Positions 10,990 through 36,277 of a DNA stretch of 46,499 bases are shown piece by piece. Positions within the stretch are counted from its first letter, which is position 1, and the number at the start of each line of letters is the position of its first letter. This DNA comes from a virus. Under the pieces are notes generated by a model, which worked only from the letters and a program-made list of their open reading frames with translations, was not told where the DNA came from and did not search any database. The stretch covers positions 1-46,499 of IMG/VR virus record IMGVR_UViG_3300014839_000012, one strand, 5' to 3'. The translations under genes were made by a program, and so were the position numbers.

Positions 10990-11222
10990 TCATTCTCATC
11001 ATGTCCTGTAAGATATCTAATCTGTTTTATAGCAGACTTATAAGTTTCCAATTCTGCTATAAGTCTCTTAATCTTCTCTCTAAGTTTATTATTTTCAAAA
11101 TGATCTGGATAGTTAGAAAGCTGTTCTAGTTTTTCTACTTGTTTTGAAATTTCATCTAATTTCCTATTATGGTCACTTATATTGTTCATAAGATACTCAT
11201 AGGTACTCTGTGAAAGTTCCAT
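10986..11222 (-). CDS. Small coiled-coil protein (78 aa)
   Basis: I chose the ATG that overlaps the polymerase stop (TGATG); the frame extends upstream only to a TTG inside the polymerase. Heptad-like leucine spacing through residues 10-65 predicts a coiled coil. Function unknown. Confidence 0.55.
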   Translation of the reverse strand: MELSQSTYEYLMNNISDHNRKLDEISKQVEKLEQLSNYPDHFENNKLREKIKRLIAELETYKSAIKQIRYLTGHDENE

Positions 11223-13657
11223 CAATGTGTCCCCCAATTATTTTGGTAAATAGTCATCTCGCCCGGAATTGTGAGCAGTATGTCACGAGGCAAACTACAA
11301 TTGTTAAAATCAATAGAGATATTGCATACTTCAAGGTAGTCTCTACAAAAAACTTCGACAAGATCGTTTCTAACTTCCCACGTAAGTGAGTCATGCGCCT
11401 CCGAAATCGGTCGCGCCATCGGGAATGGATACTTCGCATACATTATTCTTAGAATAGTTAGTTTATTGTGGTCTGAGACCGTTGCTTGAGGAATTGTTGA
11501 GAAGGCTTGTTTGAACATATCTTCGCTAACTCTTCCAAAGAAATCTCTCCTACGCCCATGTGGAGAAACCAAGTATCGTTGATTCTCAATCTGTTGCCTA
11601 ATTTCAGCATGAAATATACCTCTAATCTTTGGATTACCAGAATGAAACTTATCAAGAATTTCGACACAAATCCTATTAGAGAAATGTGTGAGTATTGCAA
11701 GCATCCCTGAACCCATGTTATAATTTCCAGCGTGTCTTGGCTTCTTTCCACGCTCCTGTCTATCATCTGGTGTAATTTCATCGAATTCCTTTCCTGTTAT
11801 TAGGCAAGCGGTAAGTGTGTGACGGTCATCTTTCAGTCCATACTTGTTACGTTTGAATTCTTTCTTTTCTAGAAGTTGTAACCCGTCAAAATCCTGAGCG
11901 AGAACACAAACAACGCGATCCTCTGCCTGACTGAGATCTCCTTCAACGAAAGTATAACCAGGAGTTGGGACAAATATAGTTCTGAGGTCCGATCCAATTC
12001 GCTCAGAACCAAATTCAAATCCGTGTTTGGGTATGGTTTGGAAACTTCCTCCACATTCTCCTTCTCGGATTCTTCCCTTGTCGTTAACGAGGAAGAAAGG
12101 TTCAATAGACTTTCCAGCGCTAGTTCTACCTGTTTCGGTTCCTTGCAGTTTATAGCTAGTTCGCATATACCCATCGGGGCTAATGTTTGCCTCCAAAAAT
12201 TGAATAACTTTATTGAGTTTTCTGGCCCTAATGACAGAGTGGAGTAGGGTTTTCCGACCTGTGTCTGTAACCTTATTAACATACAAATCCTCTAATGTTT
12301 CTTCGTCAGTACTGTAAATCATTGCTCCACTTGGAGTTTGATGTCTTTTGGGTGGGCATTTTAAGATATCATACACGAAGCGCCCAACTTGGGCCGGACT
12401 ACTTATATTGACTTTCTCTTCTGCTACCAGCGAGATTGTTTGTTCAATTTCTTCGAGTTGGGGGTAGTATTTGGCCTTGAGTTTGTCTCGCGCCAACTGG
12501 TCCACTCGCATCCCGAAGTCATCCATCTTTTTATAAATGTAAAAAACTGGATGCACTTTCTCATGAAAAAACTCATAAACTTTGAATGCCTTCGCGTCAT
12601 CTTGTTGGAGCTTCCAGATTTGCCAGGTTACAAGAGCGTCTCGTGCATTGTATTTGAGGAGTCTGTCCACATTATGTAATCGGGGATCGAATTTTTTCCC
12701 TTCGTCCTTATAGTAGGGATGATCTGTATAGATTGATGCCAAAAAATCCAGTCCCTTCGGCAACTCAGGATAGATGCAATGCGCCATGAGCATCGTATCA
12801 CCCACAATGTTCTTAAAATCCAACCCGTAAGTTTCATATACTTTCCAGTCGTACTTGATGTTCTGATTAACTATTGGGATTCCACTTTCGATCACTTCTC
12901 GGATGACGCGATATTTGTCTCCGGCTGCTGAATAATCCACTTTGCTTCCAACAAGTAATGGTATAGAGAATGCCTCCGCTCCATCATGAGAAAATCCAGT
13001 GCAGGTAATGAATCCATGATGGGTCTCAATATCATTTGTAATGAATTCCGAGTTTTTGGCTCTTTTCCACCATTCTCGAATTCCATTCGCAGTATTACAT
13101 ATCCATATCGTTTCGATAGGCGAATATCGTTCGTTATAATCTTTGATTTTAGCAACTCGTCCACAATCCCACTGAGTATAGACAAAAGGTTTGTCGTCAC
13201 TTTGCCAAATCTCCCTTGGTGAATAAATTGGTACGACTTTAATTTTCTCCATTTCAAATCTGGGATGCAGATGTAAAATGGAACCTCTCCACTTCTTGAG
13301 TCCACTTTCTTCTGTCAGAAACTTAAGCGCCACTTCTCCACAACTTACAATAACATTGGGCGCGATTGCAGCAATTTCCTCACGTATTAAAGAGTCCCAG
13401 TTCTCAGCTTCTAATGCTACTTGGAGAGCCTGGGCGCGAATTTTCTTTGCAGGGGAACTCATTCCTGGAACTGGAATTTTGATGTAATGTGTTTTATAAA
13501 GTTGATTAGTTTTAACTCCGAATGGCGCGAATAGATTTCCCAGAAGACTTCCTGATGAGCCACTAAATGAGTTCCCCAAATTATACTCAGCCATTGTGGG
13601 ATAGTCGCCTACTATCATTATTGAAGAAGGAGAACCACTACTGTTAATCATCTTCAT
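11222..13657 (-). CDS. DNA polymerase I-type with N-terminal UDG-like domain (811 aa)
   Basis: Three parts are visible. Residues about 12-160 resemble the uracil-DNA-glycosylase superfamily (VGDYPTMAEYNLGNSFSG; VSCGEVALKFL). Residues 205-345 are a 3'-5' proofreading exonuclease with the acidic residues in DIET (209-212), NQNIKYD (264-270) and YNARD (336-340). The polymerase part has motif A as DLSQAEDR (574-581), motif B as GKKPRHAGNYNMGSG (637-651) and motif C as AHDSL (754-758), so all carboxylates are kept. It is the replicative enzyme of the leftward block. In the UDG-like part the usual HPS motif is replaced by YSPRE, so glycosylase activity is doubtful. Fusions of this kind occur in other phages such as SPO1-like ones. 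Confidence 0.92.
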   Translation of the reverse strand: MKMINSSGSPSSIMIVGDYPTMAEYNLGNSFSGSSGSLLGNLFAPFGVKTNQLYKTHYIKIPVPGMSSPAKKIRAQALQVALEAENWDSLIREEIAAIAPNVIVSCGEVALKFLTEESGLKKWRGSILHLHPRFEMEKIKVVPIYSPREIWQSDDKPFVYTQWDCGRVAKIKDYNERYSPIETIWICNTANGIREWWKRAKNSEFITNDIETHHGFITCTGFSHDGAEAFSIPLLVGSKVDYSAAGDKYRVIREVIESGIPIVNQNIKYDWKVYETYGLDFKNIVGDTMLMAHCIYPELPKGLDFLASIYTDHPYYKDEGKKFDPRLHNVDRLLKYNARDALVTWQIWKLQQDDAKAFKVYEFFHEKVHPVFYIYKKMDDFGMRVDQLARDKLKAKYYPQLEEIEQTISLVAEEKVNISSPAQVGRFVYDILKCPPKRHQTPSGAMIYSTDEETLEDLYVNKVTDTGRKTLLHSVIRARKLNKVIQFLEANISPDGYMRTSYKLQGTETGRTSAGKSIEPFFLVNDKGRIREGECGGSFQTIPKHGFEFGSERIGSDLRTIFVPTPGYTFVEGDLSQAEDRVVCVLAQDFDGLQLLEKKEFKRNKYGLKDDRHTLTACLITGKEFDEITPDDRQERGKKPRHAGNYNMGSGMLAILTHFSNRICVEILDKFHSGNPKIRGIFHAEIRQQIENQRYLVSPHGRRRDFFGRVSEDMFKQAFSTIPQATVSDHNKLTILRIMYAKYPFPMARPISEAHDSLTWEVRNDLVEVFCRDYLEVCNISIDFNNCSLPRDILLTIPGEMTIYQNNWGTH

Positions 13658-15158: not shown

Positions 15159-15321
15159 TGGAAGTTTTCCTCACAATTGTAACTTGAATTGTAAAGCCAT
15201 CAATCATTTCTTCAATTGACTTCTGTAGTGCGGGCACAACAATTTGCGCCAACTGATCCTCAAATTGAGTAATCAGTGGCGCGAATGCGGTGGCTAGATC
15301 TTTTGGATCAATTAAGTTCAT
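15142..15321 (-). CDS. Hypothetical protein (59 aa)
   Basis: Starts MNLIDPKDLATAFAPLITQ; the ATG overlaps the upstream stop (ATGA). Helical with an acidic middle; no recognised motif. Both flanks are tightly coupled genes, which supports it. Confidence 0.55.
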   Translation of the reverse strand: MNLIDPKDLATAFAPLITQFEDQLAQIVVPALQKSIEEMIDGFTIQVTIVRKTSNEKSV

Positions 15322-21769: not shown

Positions 21770-21843
21770 AGCACTCTCAAAACCAAGTAAGCAAATGCAA
21801 TTATTGCTGCAATTGTGAGAATATCAAGGATTGTTTCTCTCAT
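21766..21843 (-). CDS. Single-membrane-helix micro-peptide (25 aa)
   Basis: An ATGA overlap on both sides joins it to the helicase and nuclease genes. The sequence is an acidic start followed by a long hydrophobic helix (LTIAAIIAFAYLVL) and a basic end. Its tight fit in the operon favours a real gene; function unknown. Confidence 0.5.
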   Translation of the reverse strand: MRETILDILTIAAIIAFAYLVLRVL

Positions 21844-23600
21844 CTATTTACCCACTTCATCCGTCGCGCCACTACTTGTGTCGCGAGTTCTAACATAAAG
21901 TTATCATCTGGAACTTGTTCCTCATCCAGACTATCATCAATTGAATCCACAATCAATCCCTTGAGATGAATCATAGAGTCGAAGAATTCGTCGAAGGAGT
22001 CTTTGAGATTTGCGGTATATATGTGTACAGTATCGTTTGAGTCAAAAAATGTCCTGACTCTTCCATCCGAATCTCGCATGATGCGCCAAAATCGTTGGGC
22101 ATACTGCGATTCTTTAGATTTATTCCATTGGCGTTCAAGTATAATTGCATTTCTACAGAATTGAAGATTGCGTCCCACACCTGCTGACAAGATTGAGCAG
22201 ATAAGTAAACGTGATTTACTACTTCTGAATTGTTGTTCAATTTCATCTTTTACCTTTGCATTCTCATCTGACATTTGTAATGGTTTGTGATGACTTAGTA
22301 ATGCAGCTAATGTTTCACGGACAGCCTTGTGGTGGATTCCAACTGCAAGTTGCTCATTTGGATGGTCCATTAAAAAGCATTCAATCCATGCTGCCGCGCC
22401 AAGAATTTTCATCTTACCAGTATGATGGCGCAATTGTTGCATGTAGCCAATAATTGTACCAGCATCTAAATTGGGATGTTCTAGCTTATCCCTCAAATCT
22501 TTCAAGACTTGATTATAATCCCCTACAAATTGCTTATTAGCTTCAAATTCACTGACTTCAAATTCCAATTTATGATACTCAATCTTGGGTAATGGTATGT
22601 TTACTTCAGACTTCTTTCTACCAATCATATACTTAGAAGTCTTTTGGAAGAATCTATCTCTGAGATATGGAGCTATCCCAAGAGCCTTACCTTCTCGTGA
22701 ATGAGTACAAAATCTCTCAAGCACTTCCCAAGAATAGAAGTAATTAGGATCTAGTGCATTCAAGGCTACTTTCAATTCCATGATTCTATTCTCAACTGGA
22801 GTTCCAGTCAGGAATAAAAGTGGCGCTTGAGTTCCAGATTCTTGAATCAATTCAATGAGCGCTTTAGTTCGTGCCGCTTTCACATCTTTAAAGAAATGTG
22901 CCTCATCTACAATTAATGATCCTACTTTACCCTTAACTTGCTTTACAAAATGTGGATCAGATATACGACTCCAGGGAATAATAATTACTTTACTGAGTGG
23001 GGAGATATTCTGTCGCGCCACACAAACCACTTGGGGCGCCATTTGCAAATGCTCAAAAGAACTTGGATGTTCTAAATCGAGCCAGAATCTACATTCTTCT
23101 TCCCACTGATAAATTCCTCCAGTTGGAGTGACAATGATGCAAAATTTAGTAAAATTGTCGGTAAACTTTCTGGCGTTTTCACGTAGAACGGTAAGGGCTT
23201 CAACAGTTTTTCCGAGTCCCATTTCATCGCTACACAGAACTCGACATCCTGCATTTTCTGCAAATTCAACAAACTCTCGTTGGAAAGGCAACAAATTATC
23301 ATAAAGTAAATTCAGTTCCTGTTGTTTCTGGTATTCTTTCTTGAGAATGGTATCAAAATGCCCACAGGCAAAATGGCGCAAAATGTATGTTGTGCCATTC
23401 TCCCCAAACTCAGTTGTGTGAGTTACTTCAACAACTTTACCGCAGATTTCGAAATTGTGGGGAAATAAGCTGTCCCCATAATCCTCTCGCAAAGGTGATG
23501 ATAAATGTTGCCAATCATTATCTTTAGGTTTGATTTTAAGATTTGGTATTTCATGATAGCCACAGATTTCTTGGATTCTACGATTCATCTTTGTCACCAT
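21840..23600 (-). CDS. SNF2-type helicase (586 aa)
   Basis: Motif I is DEMGLGKT at residues 125-132, motif II is DEAH at 232-235, motif III is LTGTP at 264-268, and motif VI is QYAQRFWRIMR near residue 505. This is a SWI2/SNF2 ATPase core with no added domains visible, as found in many phages where it probably acts on DNA during replication or recombination. The first 20 codons overlap a small zinc gene. Linked to the nuclease and a membrane peptide. Confidence 0.88.
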   Translation of the reverse strand: MVTKMNRRIQEICGYHEIPNLKIKPKDNDWQHLSSPLREDYGDSLFPHNFEICGKVVEVTHTTEFGENGTTYILRHFACGHFDTILKKEYQKQQELNLLYDNLLPFQREFVEFAENAGCRVLCSDEMGLGKTVEALTVLRENARKFTDNFTKFCIIVTPTGGIYQWEEECRFWLDLEHPSSFEHLQMAPQVVCVARQNISPLSKVIIIPWSRISDPHFVKQVKGKVGSLIVDEAHFFKDVKAARTKALIELIQESGTQAPLLFLTGTPVENRIMELKVALNALDPNYFYSWEVLERFCTHSREGKALGIAPYLRDRFFQKTSKYMIGRKKSEVNIPLPKIEYHKLEFEVSEFEANKQFVGDYNQVLKDLRDKLEHPNLDAGTIIGYMQQLRHHTGKMKILGAAAWIECFLMDHPNEQLAVGIHHKAVRETLAALLSHHKPLQMSDENAKVKDEIEQQFRSSKSRLLICSILSAGVGRNLQFCRNAIILERQWNKSKESQYAQRFWRIMRDSDGRVRTFFDSNDTVHIYTANLKDSFDEFFDSMIHLKGLIVDSIDDSLDEEQVPDDNFMLELATQVVARRMKWVNR

Positions 23601-23772
23601 ACAAACATTTAGGACAGTAAATTATCCAATCATTAAGCAACATCCACATAGATTTCTGTTTAGTTCCACATTTGGGACAATTAGGAGGATCTAGAATTTC
23701 TAAAGTATTTTCTATAAATCGTTTCCTAAAATACTCTGTCGTTATTTTTGTTAACTTATCTAGTGGGTCCAT
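23578..23772 (-). CDS. Zinc-ribbon protein (64 aa)
   Basis: CPKC near residue 32 and CPKC near residue 54 make a zinc ribbon. I use the ATG at 23772; a TTG nine bases upstream sits closer to GGGAG and is an alternative. It is coupled to the helicase by overlap. Confidence 0.55.
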   Translation of the reverse strand: MDPLDKLTKITTEYFRKRFIENTLEILDPPNCPKCGTKQKSMWMLLNDWIIYCPKCLYGDKDES

Positions 23773-23781
23773 AACCAACAA

Positions 23782-24089
23782 TAGCTCCCAAAGCTAAATC
23801 CTCTTTCGAGAACTTAACTAAGGGAGCTTTGATTTGCTCTGTTCTGTATGTGATTACAATACTAATAGTTAATGCGTTCGTCGTGGGACTAACCACTAGC
23901 TACTTATTAAAGTAGGCACGCCATAGTTTCCCTTTCTATACTCCAAATGTGCTACGCTATTGATATTCAGATGCATTTAAAGAAGTTGTGCGGGTGAGAA
24001 TATTACCACTATAGTTGTGGCTCGGGTATTTGCCCTCTCACTTAGGCTCTATATCTATTGATATAGATTTGCCCTATCCGCACAATTAA
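23782..24089. other. Non-coding gap in the leftward operon
   Basis: This 308-bp gap, unusually long for this block, has no credible gene. It holds an AGCTCCC/GGGAGCT inverted repeat (23783-23828, 33-base loop) and the structured element at 23986-24085. A 5' leader of the zinc-helicase-nuclease group is possible. Confidence 0.6.
23986..24085. ncRNA. Candidate multi-branched structured RNA, about 100 nt
   Basis: A perfect 8-bp outer stem (TTGTGCGG/CCGCACAA) encloses at least four stems: GTGAGA/TCTCAC; CCAC/GTGG; GGG/CCC; and CTATATC/GATATAG capped by a four-base loop and flanked by GGC/GCC. ATTTGCCCT occurs twice within it. The strand is not settled, although the leftward operon would place it on the minus strand. 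It is not a tRNA (no T- or D-arm). It may be a cis-regulatory RNA or a phage small RNA. Confidence 0.55.
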
Positions 24090-24293
24090 TCAACATTCCT
24101 CAAATAATTCCTGATGATGGTAATTTAGGGAATGTGTGTGAGATCCGCATAGCTCACATTCATTTCCTAATTCACCATTAACTTCAAGTGCAAGTATTTC
24201 TGCATACTCAATGTCTGTTGGAGTTGGCGCGACAAGAAGTTCTCGCGCCATTTGGAAGTAATCTGGTGATTTTCCTAATCCCATTGGTAACAT
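24090..24293 (-). CDS. Hypothetical small protein with CxxC...HxxxxxHH (67 aa)
   Basis: C-terminal CELCGSHTHSLNYHHQE suggests a zinc site and resembles part of an HNH-type motif without the rest of the fold. Start at the ATG just after the KTSC gene stop. Function unknown. Confidence 0.5.
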   Translation of the reverse strand: MLPMGLGKSPDYFQMARELLVAPTPTDIEYAEILALEVNGELGNECELCGSHTHSLNYHHQELFEEC

Positions 24294-24551
24294 TCATAAC
24301 CTCTCAAATGAAAACAAATTTCGGAATCCATAGTTGAAATACTGGCCACTACTTGCAGAAGTAATGAGATCTAGTATCTTAAAGTCAGGCACTTCACTAT
24401 AATTATACACAGTTCCATCTGTGAAATGCACAGTTGCATCTTTGGTCAGAAGATTATACTCGATGTAATCAATGGCGCTTGATGCTAAGGTGAATGTAAG
24501 AATCCTAATATCAGGACTCAATTGCAATCCACTATTGTTGATTAGGGGCAT
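24294..24551 (-). CDS. KTSC-domain protein (85 aa)
   Basis: The pattern SSAID.I.YN...kdATVHFtDGTVYNYSEVPDF ending GQYFNYGFR is a KTSC domain, a small beta fold occurring alone in many phage and bacterial proteins. I prefer the ATG at 24551 over a TTG further upstream, because it reduces the overlap with the previous gene to about 20 bases. Molecular role unknown. Confidence 0.7.
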   Translation of the reverse strand: MPLINNSGLQLSPDIRILTFTLASSAIDYIEYNLLTKDATVHFTDGTVYNYSEVPDFKILDLITSASSGQYFNYGFRNLFSFERL

Positions 24552-24732
24552 AGTTTGAAGTTCCAGTGCAGTAATTAATTGCCTCTCTCCAAGAGTTGAA
24601 AGCTTTTCTAGCAGAACTTTCTGGTTCAATCCAATAATTACCTTGCTTAAGTAGTAAACTTACTACCCATTCTCCACAATATCTATACTTTTGAATTTTA
24701 TACTTCATTGGTATGAAGTGATTTTTCAGCAT
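24532..24732 (-). CDS. Hypothetical protein (66 aa)
   Basis: Preceded by AAAGGAGAAGT, a strong ribosome site. No recognised motif, Trp/Tyr-rich (YRYCGEWVVSLLL). Overlaps the KTSC gene. Confidence 0.55.
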   Translation of the reverse strand: MLKNHFIPMKYKIQKYRYCGEWVVSLLLKQGNYWIEPESSARKAFNSWREAINYCTGTSNYAPNQQ

Positions 24733-24808
24733 ACTTCTCCTTTATTGCTTTTAGCAATTCATTGGGTCTCGTCAATGACTCTCCATTCAATTCATTGACC
24801 AAGGGCAT
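24698..24808 (-). CDS. Micro-protein (36 aa), truncated paralogue of 25003-25185
   Basis: Carries RPNELLKAIKEKYAEKS, matching QLNELLKAMKEKYAQRA at the end of the product of the 25003-25185 gene. The DNA of both also matches over the run reading CTTCTCC TTTATTGC. A partial tandem duplication is likely. The overlap with neighbours is 17 and 35 bases. Confidence 0.5.
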   Translation of the reverse strand: MPLVNELNGESLTRPNELLKAIKEKYAEKSLHTNEV

Positions 24809-25019
24809 CTACTGGTTTCTCCAAGGATTCTCTTACTGATCTTAATTCAGTATTCAATTGCTCAATACAAATAAGATAACTTTGAATGAGACTTGTATTC
24901 ATTTTATCTACTTTAAACATTAAGTCTAGCAAAGTAGATAGAGTAACAAATCCTGCAACGTAGAATTCTGTTACTCTATATCTTTGAATTTGATTATTTA
25001 AATTAAGCTCTTTGGGCAT
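24792..25019 (-). CDS. Hypothetical helical protein (75 aa)
   Basis: Preceded by AAGGAGAAGT. Helical, with no recognised motif. Sits between the two related LNELLKAMKEKYA genes. Confidence 0.55.
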   Translation of the reverse strand: MPKELNLNNQIQRYRVTEFYVAGFVTLSTLLDLMFKVDKMNTSLIQSYLICIEQLNTELRSVRESLEKPVDALGQ

Positions 25020-25793: not shown

Positions 25794-25842
25794 CCACACC
25801 CTAGTATTGACTCCCAGTTAGAGAATCAGTACTAAAGTGTGG
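25794..25842. promoter_or_regulatory. Long imperfect inverted repeat
   Basis: CCACAC (25794-25799) pairs with GTGTGG (25837-25842), and the arms continue with TAGTA/TACTA and TTGA/TCAG (with one wobble and a two-base bulge) to an 11-base loop. It lies in the 260-bp control gap between 25610 and 25868 and is probably a terminator or regulatory hairpin for the gene below 25.87 kb. Confidence 0.45.
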
Positions 25843-25868
25843 CGATGGTTAGTTGTGTTACAAATATA

Positions 25869-26363
25869 TCACTTGTGTGATTCTAAGAAGCGGGCAAACT
25901 CATCCATAATACTCTTTTTGTATTCCTGCGGGAGTTTGCCAGTCTCTTTGTATAGCCTACGGTCTAGTCCTTTTAGAGACTTTGCTTGTTTTGTTCGCGC
26001 TTTCTCAATTTCTTTGTTCAGTCTCTCAGAACGCTCATGCGCGATGACTTCTGCCCATTGCTGTTCACGGCGACGCGCCGCTTTAATTCGCTCCACTGAG
26101 ATTCTCTTGTCATAAACTGAACAAAGTATGTTGAGTTTAGCTGACAGCATCCCAATGTCACGCGCCATTTGCGCTAGATCCATTCGTTGCAATTCATCGA
26201 AGGATGCAAATTCGCTACTTACTTCACTCAGGAAGTAAGAAGTGAATCCCAATGACTCGACTAACTGGGAATCCAATTTACACTTGGATTCAGTTATCTG
26301 TGTTTTACTCGCATCTATTAAAGATGGAGATTCATCTGGATGGAAGATCTTACGAGACCTCAT
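25869..26363 (-). CDS. Hypothetical coiled-coil protein (164 aa)
   Basis: Residues 30-75 helical, 90-130 a charged coiled coil (RIKAARRREQQWAEV). Starts with ATG after GGGAGAAGGA. No recognised domain. Confidence 0.55.
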   Translation of the reverse strand: MRSRKIFHPDESPSLIDASKTQITESKCKLDSQLVESLGFTSYFLSEVSSEFASFDELQRMDLAQMARDIGMLSAKLNILCSVYDKRISVERIKAARRREQQWAEVIAHERSERLNKEIEKARTKQAKSLKGLDRRLYKETGKLPQEYKKSIMDEFARFLESHK

Positions 26364-26422: not shown

Positions 26423-26444
26423 TTGAACAAATTCCCACAATAAG

Positions 26445-26516
26445 GTAGCCTACTAGGTTAACATACTAACTCCCATTTAATCCTGGGGGCGATAATATGT
26501 ATGGCTAGTAGGCTAC
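26445..26516. terminator. Perfect 12-bp inverted repeat, 48-base loop
   Basis: GTAGCCTACTAG (26445-26456) and CTAGTAGGCTAC (26505-26516) flank a loop between the acidic-tail gene and the coiled-coil gene. AGCCTACTAGGTTA from the left arm recurs exactly at 31835-31848 just before the large terminase. It may be a terminator, a processed RNA or a protein site; there is no T tract. Confidence 0.5.
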
Positions 26517-26529
26517 AGAGTTCTAGGAA

Positions 26530-26970
26530 CTAGTTCTCAGTCTCTCCCGACTCGCTTTCCTCAACATCTGGAATCTCACTATCGTCAATTTCATCGGTGG
26601 GCGCGACCGTAGAGTACTCCACTGTCAAGTCAGAACGAAGTGTGAACAAATTGGGCAGTTCAGTCACAAACGGCTTACCATCGTTTGACTGTTCTTGAAA
26701 CGTCATAAACGCACTGATTTGCTCGGGAGTAGCATGAAAGATTGTCTTCATGCTCTCCACAACCTGACAGTTAGCAGCCACGGAAGCAAACATTTCTTTG
26801 ATTGTCTGTTGTACCGTCTGGTACATATATTGTTTCCATTGACTCTCATAGAGCTTACGGAGTGATTCAACGTTCACTGATTCCACAGGGGCATGGTCAA
26901 CCGTCACCTTTACGATTGTCCCCTTGTCGTCTACCTTAACATTAATCGAGTTCGTCTTAGTTCTTGCCAT
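26530..26970 (-). CDS. Hypothetical protein with acidic tail (146 aa)
   Basis: A helical body (SLRKLYESQWKQYMYQT) and acidic C terminus (DSEIPDVEESESGETEN). It shares L.rLyES, vAAN.Q....M and TPE.i.AF with the 16117-16539 product. It precedes the large inverted repeat. Function unknown; an early regulatory or SSB-related role is conceivable. Confidence 0.55.
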   Translation of the reverse strand: MARTKTNSINVKVDDKGTIVKVTVDHAPVESVNVESLRKLYESQWKQYMYQTVQQTIKEMFASVAANCQVVESMKTIFHATPEQISAFMTFQEQSNDGKPFVTELPNLFTLRSDLTVEYSTVAPTDEIDDSEIPDVEESESGETEN

Positions 26971-27503: not shown

Positions 27504-27717
27504 GTACTAGTACTATTGGGGTGAAACGTCACTTTTAGGGGTGTGTCCTTATATACTATATATATTATGTATATATATGAATATAAAGGGCTTAGCAAAC
27601 TAGTACCCACTCTAACCTAGTACTAGTGTTAGGTAGGTGCTTTAGAGCTTTTTTGAGCTTTTCAGTTTTACTTTTTTAGTACCTAGTCTAGTACTGAAGT
27701 ACTAAAAGGTACTAGTA
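27504..27717. other. Candidate replication origin: CTAGTAC repeats and AT-rich tract
   Basis: Variants of GTACTAGTAC occur at 27504, 27599, 27617, 27688, 27699 and 27709, some as inverted pairs such as TTTTAGTAC/GTACTAAAA near 27674-27708. Between them lies a nearly pure AT stretch (27549-27587) and T runs (27649-27677). No gene is present. Iterons plus an unwinding element are typical for an origin; this remains an inference. Confidence 0.5.
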
Positions 27718-27752
27718 TGAGTAAGTGACTGAAAACAAAGGGAGAGTAGAGC

Positions 27753-27902
27753 CTAACGCTCCTGATTCAAGTCTTCCACACATCTGTCATAGATATGCAG
27801 CCATACCCTTAGCAGCATATTAAATGATGCGTCAGTGGTATCAGGAGCATCCTGTAATGACTCGATTAGGAGTAATGCTTCCCTATCAGTGTGATAGTTC
27901 AT
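27753..27902 (-). CDS. Micro-protein (49 aa)
   Basis: Reads MNYHTDREALLLIESLQD and is preceded by TTGAAAGGACAAGACA. Helical; no recognised motif. It lies directly after the 27919-28080 gene, 16 bases downstream. The shared leader with 27370 supports the start. Confidence 0.6.
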   Translation of the reverse strand: MNYHTDREALLLIESLQDAPDTTDASFNMLLRVWLHIYDRCVEDLNQER

Positions 27903-28364: not shown

Positions 28365-28634
28365 TAGTACTCGACCCGGACCCGTACTCCCCAAATCAGA
28401 TTAGTACCTTTATATTATGGGCCCTTACCTCATTCACATAAATGTACTTTTATTCCCACTTAACTTATTCTAAGTGAAGAAAGGTGCCCTAAAATATCCC
28501 ATCCCGCCCAGAATGCATCTTCACCTTTTCTTCTTTTTAATATTTATTATCCTACTAATTAAAACTAAGTAGTGTTAGGTTCTACTATTCCATTCGCGCC
28601 ACCTATCCTGTTGATTCGATGGCGCGACTAGTTC
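28365..28634. other. Non-coding control region
   Basis: No gene on either strand. Contains CACTTA/TAAGTG hairpin (28457-28476), and TCGCGCCA (28594) facing TGGCGCGA (28620) as an inverted pair with 18 bases between. Confidence 0.6.
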
Positions 28635-28663
28635 TTGCATTCCATCGCGAAGTGTGTTAGACT
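28635..28663 (+). promoter_or_regulatory. Sigma-70-like rightward promoter candidate
   Basis: TTGCAT (28635-28640), 17 bases, TAGACT (28658-28663), about 34 bases ahead of the first rightward gene. Likely promoter of the structural block. Confidence 0.4.
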
Positions 28664-35851: not shown

Positions 35852-36051
35852 GTCCCAATCAACATTTAACTGATAAACAAGTAAAACTCGCTAATGAAAA
35901 AGGAGAGTGTCCAGTTTGTAATAAATTGGATGCTTTAGAAGAAGGACCCTACACAAATATAATATGTATAAAATGTGGGGCAGTATTTGTTAATAATCCC
36001 CAACTTGGTCATTATTATGTGGGTAATAAACTACTATTGAGGATAAAATAG
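35848..36051 (+). CDS. Zinc-ribbon protein (67 aa)
   Basis: CPVC near residue 21 and CIKC near residue 39 form a zinc ribbon. ATGA overlap with the previous gene. The only clear zinc ribbon of this sort in the structural block apart from the 43655 gene. Confidence 0.55.
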   Translation: MSPNQHLTDKQVKLANEKGECPVCNKLDALEEGPYTNIICIKCGAVFVNNPQLGHYYVGNKLLLRIK

Positions 36052-36052
36052 C

Positions 36053-36277
36053 GTGAGTCAACAATTTCATGGTACAATTTTCTCATTCCCACAAGTCCTA
36101 AAGTTCGACCTAGAAGTGGAAGAACGTAAGGCGCGAGTCAGACTGGAGCGAGATAAACTGTCAGATCAATTAACTAAAGAGGGATTTCATTTTCAAGGGA
36201 ATGATTGTATTCCTTATGTAAGTCCTAATGATCCCATTTATCGCGCCATCGAGAAAGCAATGGAGAGATTTGAATGA
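36053..36277 (+). CDS. Hypothetical protein (74 aa), GTG start
   Basis: Coiled-coil-like, acidic. GTG start one base after the previous stop. No recognised motif. Confidence 0.5.
   Translation: MSQQFHGTIFSFPQVLKFDLEVEERKARVRLERDKLSDQLTKEGFHFQGNDCIPYVSPNDPIYRAIEKAMERFE

Follow-up and report, generated by a model that had tools for sequence, protein, structure and literature searches.

The stretch of DNA analysed here, referred to as the window, is the 46,499-base IMG/VR virus record IMGVR_UViG_3300014839_000012 in its entirety. It derives from a tailed phage that encodes its own polymerase, helicase, terminase and major capsid protein. Rightward structural genes occupy the right part and the far left of the window, and a leftward operon of replication-type genes and small unknown genes extends from 8.9 to 27 kb. 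The operon includes a family A DNA polymerase gene (11222-13657, minus strand), the product of which carries an N-terminal domain of the uracil-DNA-glycosylase superfamily and a 3'-5' exonuclease domain. A preliminary description of this DNA placed a multi-branched RNA in a 308-bp gap between two listed open reading frames of the operon and called the gap otherwise unexplained. The gap (23782-24089) is indeed 308 bp long, but much of it is taken up by a 46-codon ORF that is a probable small gene, and a ribosome-binding site is buried there in a hairpin. The features of the locus, in the order in which the operon is read, are as follows.

24090-24293, minus strand: gene of 67 amino acids, the upstream neighbour, its stop codon 4 nt before the RNA domain
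23986-24085, minus strand (the sense strand of the leftward operon): folded RNA domain of 100 nt with two junctions, from minimum free energy compared with shuffles
23907-23924, minus strand: 5-codon ORF (MACLL) behind AAAGGG, read from the sequence, ending about 11 nt before the start of ORF B
23756-23896, minus strand: ORF B, 46 codons with a GTG start, running through hairpin C and overlapping the zinc-ribbon start
23783-23828, minus strand: hairpin C, a stem of 19 bp interrupted by a single 2x2 internal loop, -30.2 kcal/mol
23578-23781, minus strand: gene for a zinc-ribbon-like small protein (CPKC...CPKC, from the sequence), downstream of the RNA domain
21840-23600, minus strand: DNA helicase gene (phrog_62 DNA helicase, E = 4e-44), its start overlapping the zinc-ribbon gene

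Relatives of the 67-aa gene were searched for and none were found, and all Pfam zinc-ribbon matches of the zinc-ribbon gene were below threshold.

The minus strand of 23986-24085 has a minimum free energy of -40.0 kcal/mol, compared to a mean of -18.6 (sd 3.1, z = -6.8) for dinucleotide shuffles, and none of the 6000 shuffles reached the native energy. The plus strand gave -39.2 kcal/mol against a shuffle mean of -21.8 (z = -5.5), a value likewise reached by 0 of 6000 shuffles; the minus strand thus folds better against its shuffles than the plus strand (z of -6.8 versus -5.5). When 928 windows of 100 nt per strand were scanned across the genome, a single window outranked the domain on the minus strand and none did so on the plus strand. 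Its ensemble diversity was 1.9, indicating that the domain is practically one structure, and the predicted fold was unchanged from 20 to 45 C. These results indicated that the RNA fold is real as a prediction and lies far outside chance. The structured-RNA proposal of the preliminary description passed this energy test by a wide margin and is, overall, partly supported: the element is real and strongly structured, and its strand and role are what we infer. Other strong hairpins occur in the window at 26436-26535, 27600-27760, 28590-28649, 15230-15289 and 24121-24174, and strongly folded 100-nt windows are more numerous in this phage genome than in three of its relatives, G026, G029 and G001.

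The closing stem of the domain, P1, is a perfect 8-bp helix in which TTGTGCGG (23986-23993) pairs with CCGCACAA (24078-24085), and it opens into a three-way junction with arms P2 and P3. Read 5' to 3' on the minus strand, the domain consists of P1 (UUGUGCGG), the junction AUA, P2, AA and the P3 strand GUGAGA, followed by P3a, GA, P3b, AAUAU and the 3' strands of P3 and P1. Within a 416-nt context, the inner P1 pairs that were checked kept a pairing probability near 1, and the outermost pair had a probability of 0.72. Four inner helices were counted, or five if the bulged arm is split into P2a and P2b, in agreement with the at least four inner stems described previously, and the word reported to recur in two hairpins was found at both places (ATTTGCCCT at 24028-24036 and 24067-24075). 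The parts of the domain are listed below.

24044-24074, minus strand: arm P2, predicted as GGGC, an AAA bulge, an 8-bp stem with an AAUA loop, and GCCU
23994-24041, minus strand: arm P3, predicted, 6 bp, abutting P1 directly and enclosing a second junction with P3a and P3b
24035-24024, minus strand: hairpin P3a, predicted, GGG-CAAAUA-CCC
24021-24005, minus strand: hairpin P3b, predicted, GCCAC-AACUAUA-GUGGU
24067-24075, minus strand: first copy of the repeated sequence AGGGCAAAT (ATTTGCCCT on the plus strand), in P2
24028-24036, minus strand: second copy of the sequence AGGGCAAAT, in P3/P3a
24041-24076, minus strand: candidate 11-nt receptor for a GAAA tetraloop, close to the consensus and located where P2 begins at its base, UAGGG (24076-24072)/CCUAAG (24046-24041), from sequence and fold

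On one side, P1, P3 and P3a follow one another with no linker between them, so that a long coaxial stack of these helices with two side arms is plausible. Since both strands fold nearly equally well, the inverted repeat might instead work as double- or single-stranded DNA, for example as a replication, recombination or packaging site. Such a DNA-level role is improbable for an element that lies inside a long operon with no recombinase or terminase gene recognised nearby, and whose GAAA loop and CCUAAG receptor are specific to the minus strand.

The statement that the domain fits no known family was borne out by searches of Rfam 15 (riboswitches, ribozymes, sRNAs and introns), which gave 0 matches in the window at the gathering threshold, and by ARAGORN, which gave 0 tRNA or tmRNA genes. 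A relaxed Rfam search (E <= 10) of 23750-24320 returned only chance microRNA and ROSE matches far below threshold. Resemblances to self-cleaving ribozymes, pRNA and TPP-like RNAs were dropped, as none had an Rfam match. The c-di-GMP-I (GEMM) riboswitch has a AGGGCAAA...GCCUAA arm and a contact between a GAAA loop and its receptor. The domain has a similar arm and, with hairpin C, may form a similar contact, but no Rfam match to this family (RF01051) appeared even at E up to 10 and the rest of the fold differs. There was no minus-strand terminator-like site in 23500-24900, and the closing stem is followed by CTTCTTTAAA with no T-run, so the domain is not a simple terminator.

Two further functions were also weighed. 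Antitermination by the HK022 put RNA works through the zinc-binding domain of the RNA polymerase beta' subunit. The put RNA is about 70 nt long with two stem-loops, lies near early promoters and works without phage proteins (PMC9378689). Like put, the domain is a compact RNA between genes of an early-type phage operon and would affect, in cis, the transcript that carries it; unlike put, it is 100 nt long with two three-way junctions, lies about 3 kb into the operon and has no sequence similarity to put, and no similar sequence was found in the phage collection. A put-like function is extremely unlikely given this different architecture. The compact, autonomous fold would also suit a small RNA that the phage makes as a discrete species, acting in trans or as an RNA decoy, yet no convincing minus-strand promoter or terminator was found around the domain, where promoter-like sites were fewer than in shuffles, and we regard this explanation as highly improbable.

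The major capsid protein served as query in two profile searches that gathered related viral records, the nearest having 55% capsid identity, and a covariance model, R1, was built from the single sequence. R1 found no homologue in 74 related viral records, a single-sequence model being weak for distant relatives, and no match in the two best-covered relatives, G026 and G029. It likewise found no homologue in 80 helicase loci, where one match, at 7716-7821 of L209, was rejected because it is within a 308-aa ORF and has a broken closing stem. Besides the domain itself, R1 also matched 35967-36100 of the window (16.7 bits), which was discarded as it lies in a coding region and has many broken pairs. 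Nothing similar to the domain was found by blastn against phage and plasmid collections, and pattern scans of viral and genome contigs revealed no homologue. DNA patterns built on the repeated GGGCAAA arm had two viral matches that proved to be coding sequence in two near-identical contigs, five genome matches and 21 looser viral matches were scored as nothing by the covariance model, and a stricter scan gave zero matches. Gaps in MW202489.1 that seemed to be noncoding on the map read as unannotated coding sequence.

The nearest syntenic phage, G026, has a helicase of 55-59% identity and a KTSC-domain gene of 42% identity. Its gene order is KTSC gene, one small ORF and helicase, without the 67-aa gene, the RNA or the zinc-ribbon gene. 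Given the absence of the element from G026 and the searched records, it would either be restricted to a narrow lineage or have relatives outside the searched collections. That the P0002-RNA-zinc-ribbon segment is missing from G026, and that no relative was found, would suit a functionless chance fold or the remnant of a recently inserted segment. Pure chance is unlikely because 0 of 6000 shuffles reached the energy and the domain has the lowest or second-lowest z in the genome scan; a decaying insert is conceivable, and absence of function is on the whole hardly probable. Elsewhere in the two phages, homologous genes are closely followed by a strong hairpin with TTTTT after it, at 25795-25847 (minus strand) after 25869-26363 of the window and at L191 13593-13622 after 13038-13478 of G026. 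These two hairpins, which have unrelated stem sequences, are probably a position-conserved terminator. About 60 nt before the terminator-like hairpin of G026, a 3-codon ORF (MTW; L191 13500-13535) lies behind a perfect AAGGAGG and could encode a leader peptide.

A separate feature of this genome is the octamer TGGCGCGA/TCGCGCCA, present in 80 copies genome-wide (for example at 24226, 24243, 31735 and 31749) versus 0.3 expected from dinucleotides. Its density of about 1720 per Mb is within the range of cyanobacterial HIP1, 1000-2000 per Mb (PMC4390886). The octamer is non-palindromic and occurs on both strands and in several reading frames, mostly within genes; 90 of 98 GGCGCGA heptamers lie inside genes, and no one-base variant of the octamer exceeds 11 copies. 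The related phages G001 (L092, L093; 29 copies versus 1 expected), L011, L123 and L239 carry an iterated word that is similar but not identical, GGCGCGG/CGGCGCG, and there was no such word in G026 and G029. The iteration of the octamer may be more unusual than the RNA.

Between the domain and the zinc-ribbon gene, ORF B has a codon score of 0.13, which equals the median of real genes and is near the 99th percentile of non-coding frames (95th and 99th percentiles, 0.05 and 0.14). No homologues were found when searched for. From its gene-like codon use, ORF B is a probable small gene; any function of the 5-codon ORF is putative. Hairpin C carries a GAAA tetraloop at 23807-23804. Within its 3' arm lies GGGAG (23789-23785), presumably where ribosomes bind for the zinc-ribbon gene and the sole good site of this kind for that gene. 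Opening the hairpin was calculated to cost 16.4 kcal/mol for a start at ATG 23772 or 19.3 kcal/mol at TTG 23781, which made the zinc-ribbon start the most occluded of 34 starts examined (next gene, 9.9; median, about 5.6 kcal/mol). An opening cost of 16-19 kcal/mol makes translational coupling or regulated opening likely at this start. The arrangement resembles Shine-Dalgarno-sequestering hairpins with translational coupling, in that GGGAG is enclosed by a 19-bp hairpin through which an upstream, overlapping ORF runs, and differs from them in that ORF B has no good ribosome-binding site of its own. Under a riboswitch reading, the buried site would be a possible expression platform.

The canonical GAAA-specific 11-nt receptor is UAUGG/CCUAAG, and it tolerates variation (PMC10004510). 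The candidate at the base of P2 matches 10 of 11 positions with the CC/GG pairs in place. It has G instead of U as its third base and lies at a three-way junction, not in an internal loop, and its formation would cost one P3 pair. Among 3200 shuffles of the leader, the receptor appeared in 19 and a stable GAAA hairpin in 28, and both together in 0, the co-occurrence having been noticed post hoc. The GAAA loop of hairpin C and the junction receptor are a lead, not a result. In the most far-reaching version, which we consider very improbable, the 310-nt leader would be a new kind of phage RNA switch, in which the two-junction domain would bind, through its receptor, the GAAA loop of hairpin C, where the ribosome-binding site is hidden, and a ligand, a protein or the passage of a ribosome would free the lock and so time helicase production.

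The reading that we favour, with modest confidence, is that the domain is not a separate gene but a compact part of the leftward polycistronic mRNA that acts in cis, ahead of the zinc-ribbon and helicase genes. The near-single structure far outside chance argues for it, as do the better z on the sense strand of the operon, the lack of a T-run or terminator call, the wide margin by which the zinc-ribbon start is the most occluded, and the co-occurrence of the GAAA hairpin and near-consensus receptor in the gap. The domain also fills 100 of the approximately 110 nt from the stop codon of the 67-aa gene to the next possible start. Against it stand the lack of a homologue, the plus strand that folds almost as well, and a spacing of about 158 nt between domain and hairpin C, which is long for a joined aptamer and expression platform. 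Moreover, translation of ORF B would make hairpin C part of a coding sequence, with no need for the domain to take part, and the other strong hairpins of the genome may be structural for unrelated reasons.

An element with no role in translation control has also to be considered. As a nuclease barrier or RNase III site, the domain would split the KTSC/67-aa message from the zinc-ribbon/helicase message and protect an end. It begins 4 nt past a stop codon and is complete before the next start is reached, and several other long intergenic hairpins lie in the same operon, but a simple hairpin would be enough for a barrier, which has no need of two junctions and specific bulges; we regard this as a possible though rather unlikely explanation.

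Under the favoured cis-acting reading, the domain and hairpin C together would set the amounts of zinc-ribbon protein and helicase. Hairpin C would block the zinc-ribbon start until it was opened by ribosomes that translate ORF B or by RNase III cleavage, and the junction domain, a short distance before the start of ORF B, would be a regulatory or protective 5' part that shields the message end or binds a protein or ligand. Our guess for the role overall is that it is most likely the control or protection of neighbouring messages.

As predicted, the domain is a clean orphan fold that is well supported, and its role is putative. Were it transcribed and functional, the domain would be a compact structured RNA without a described family, placed ahead of the replication genes in a group of phages represented by metagenomes only.
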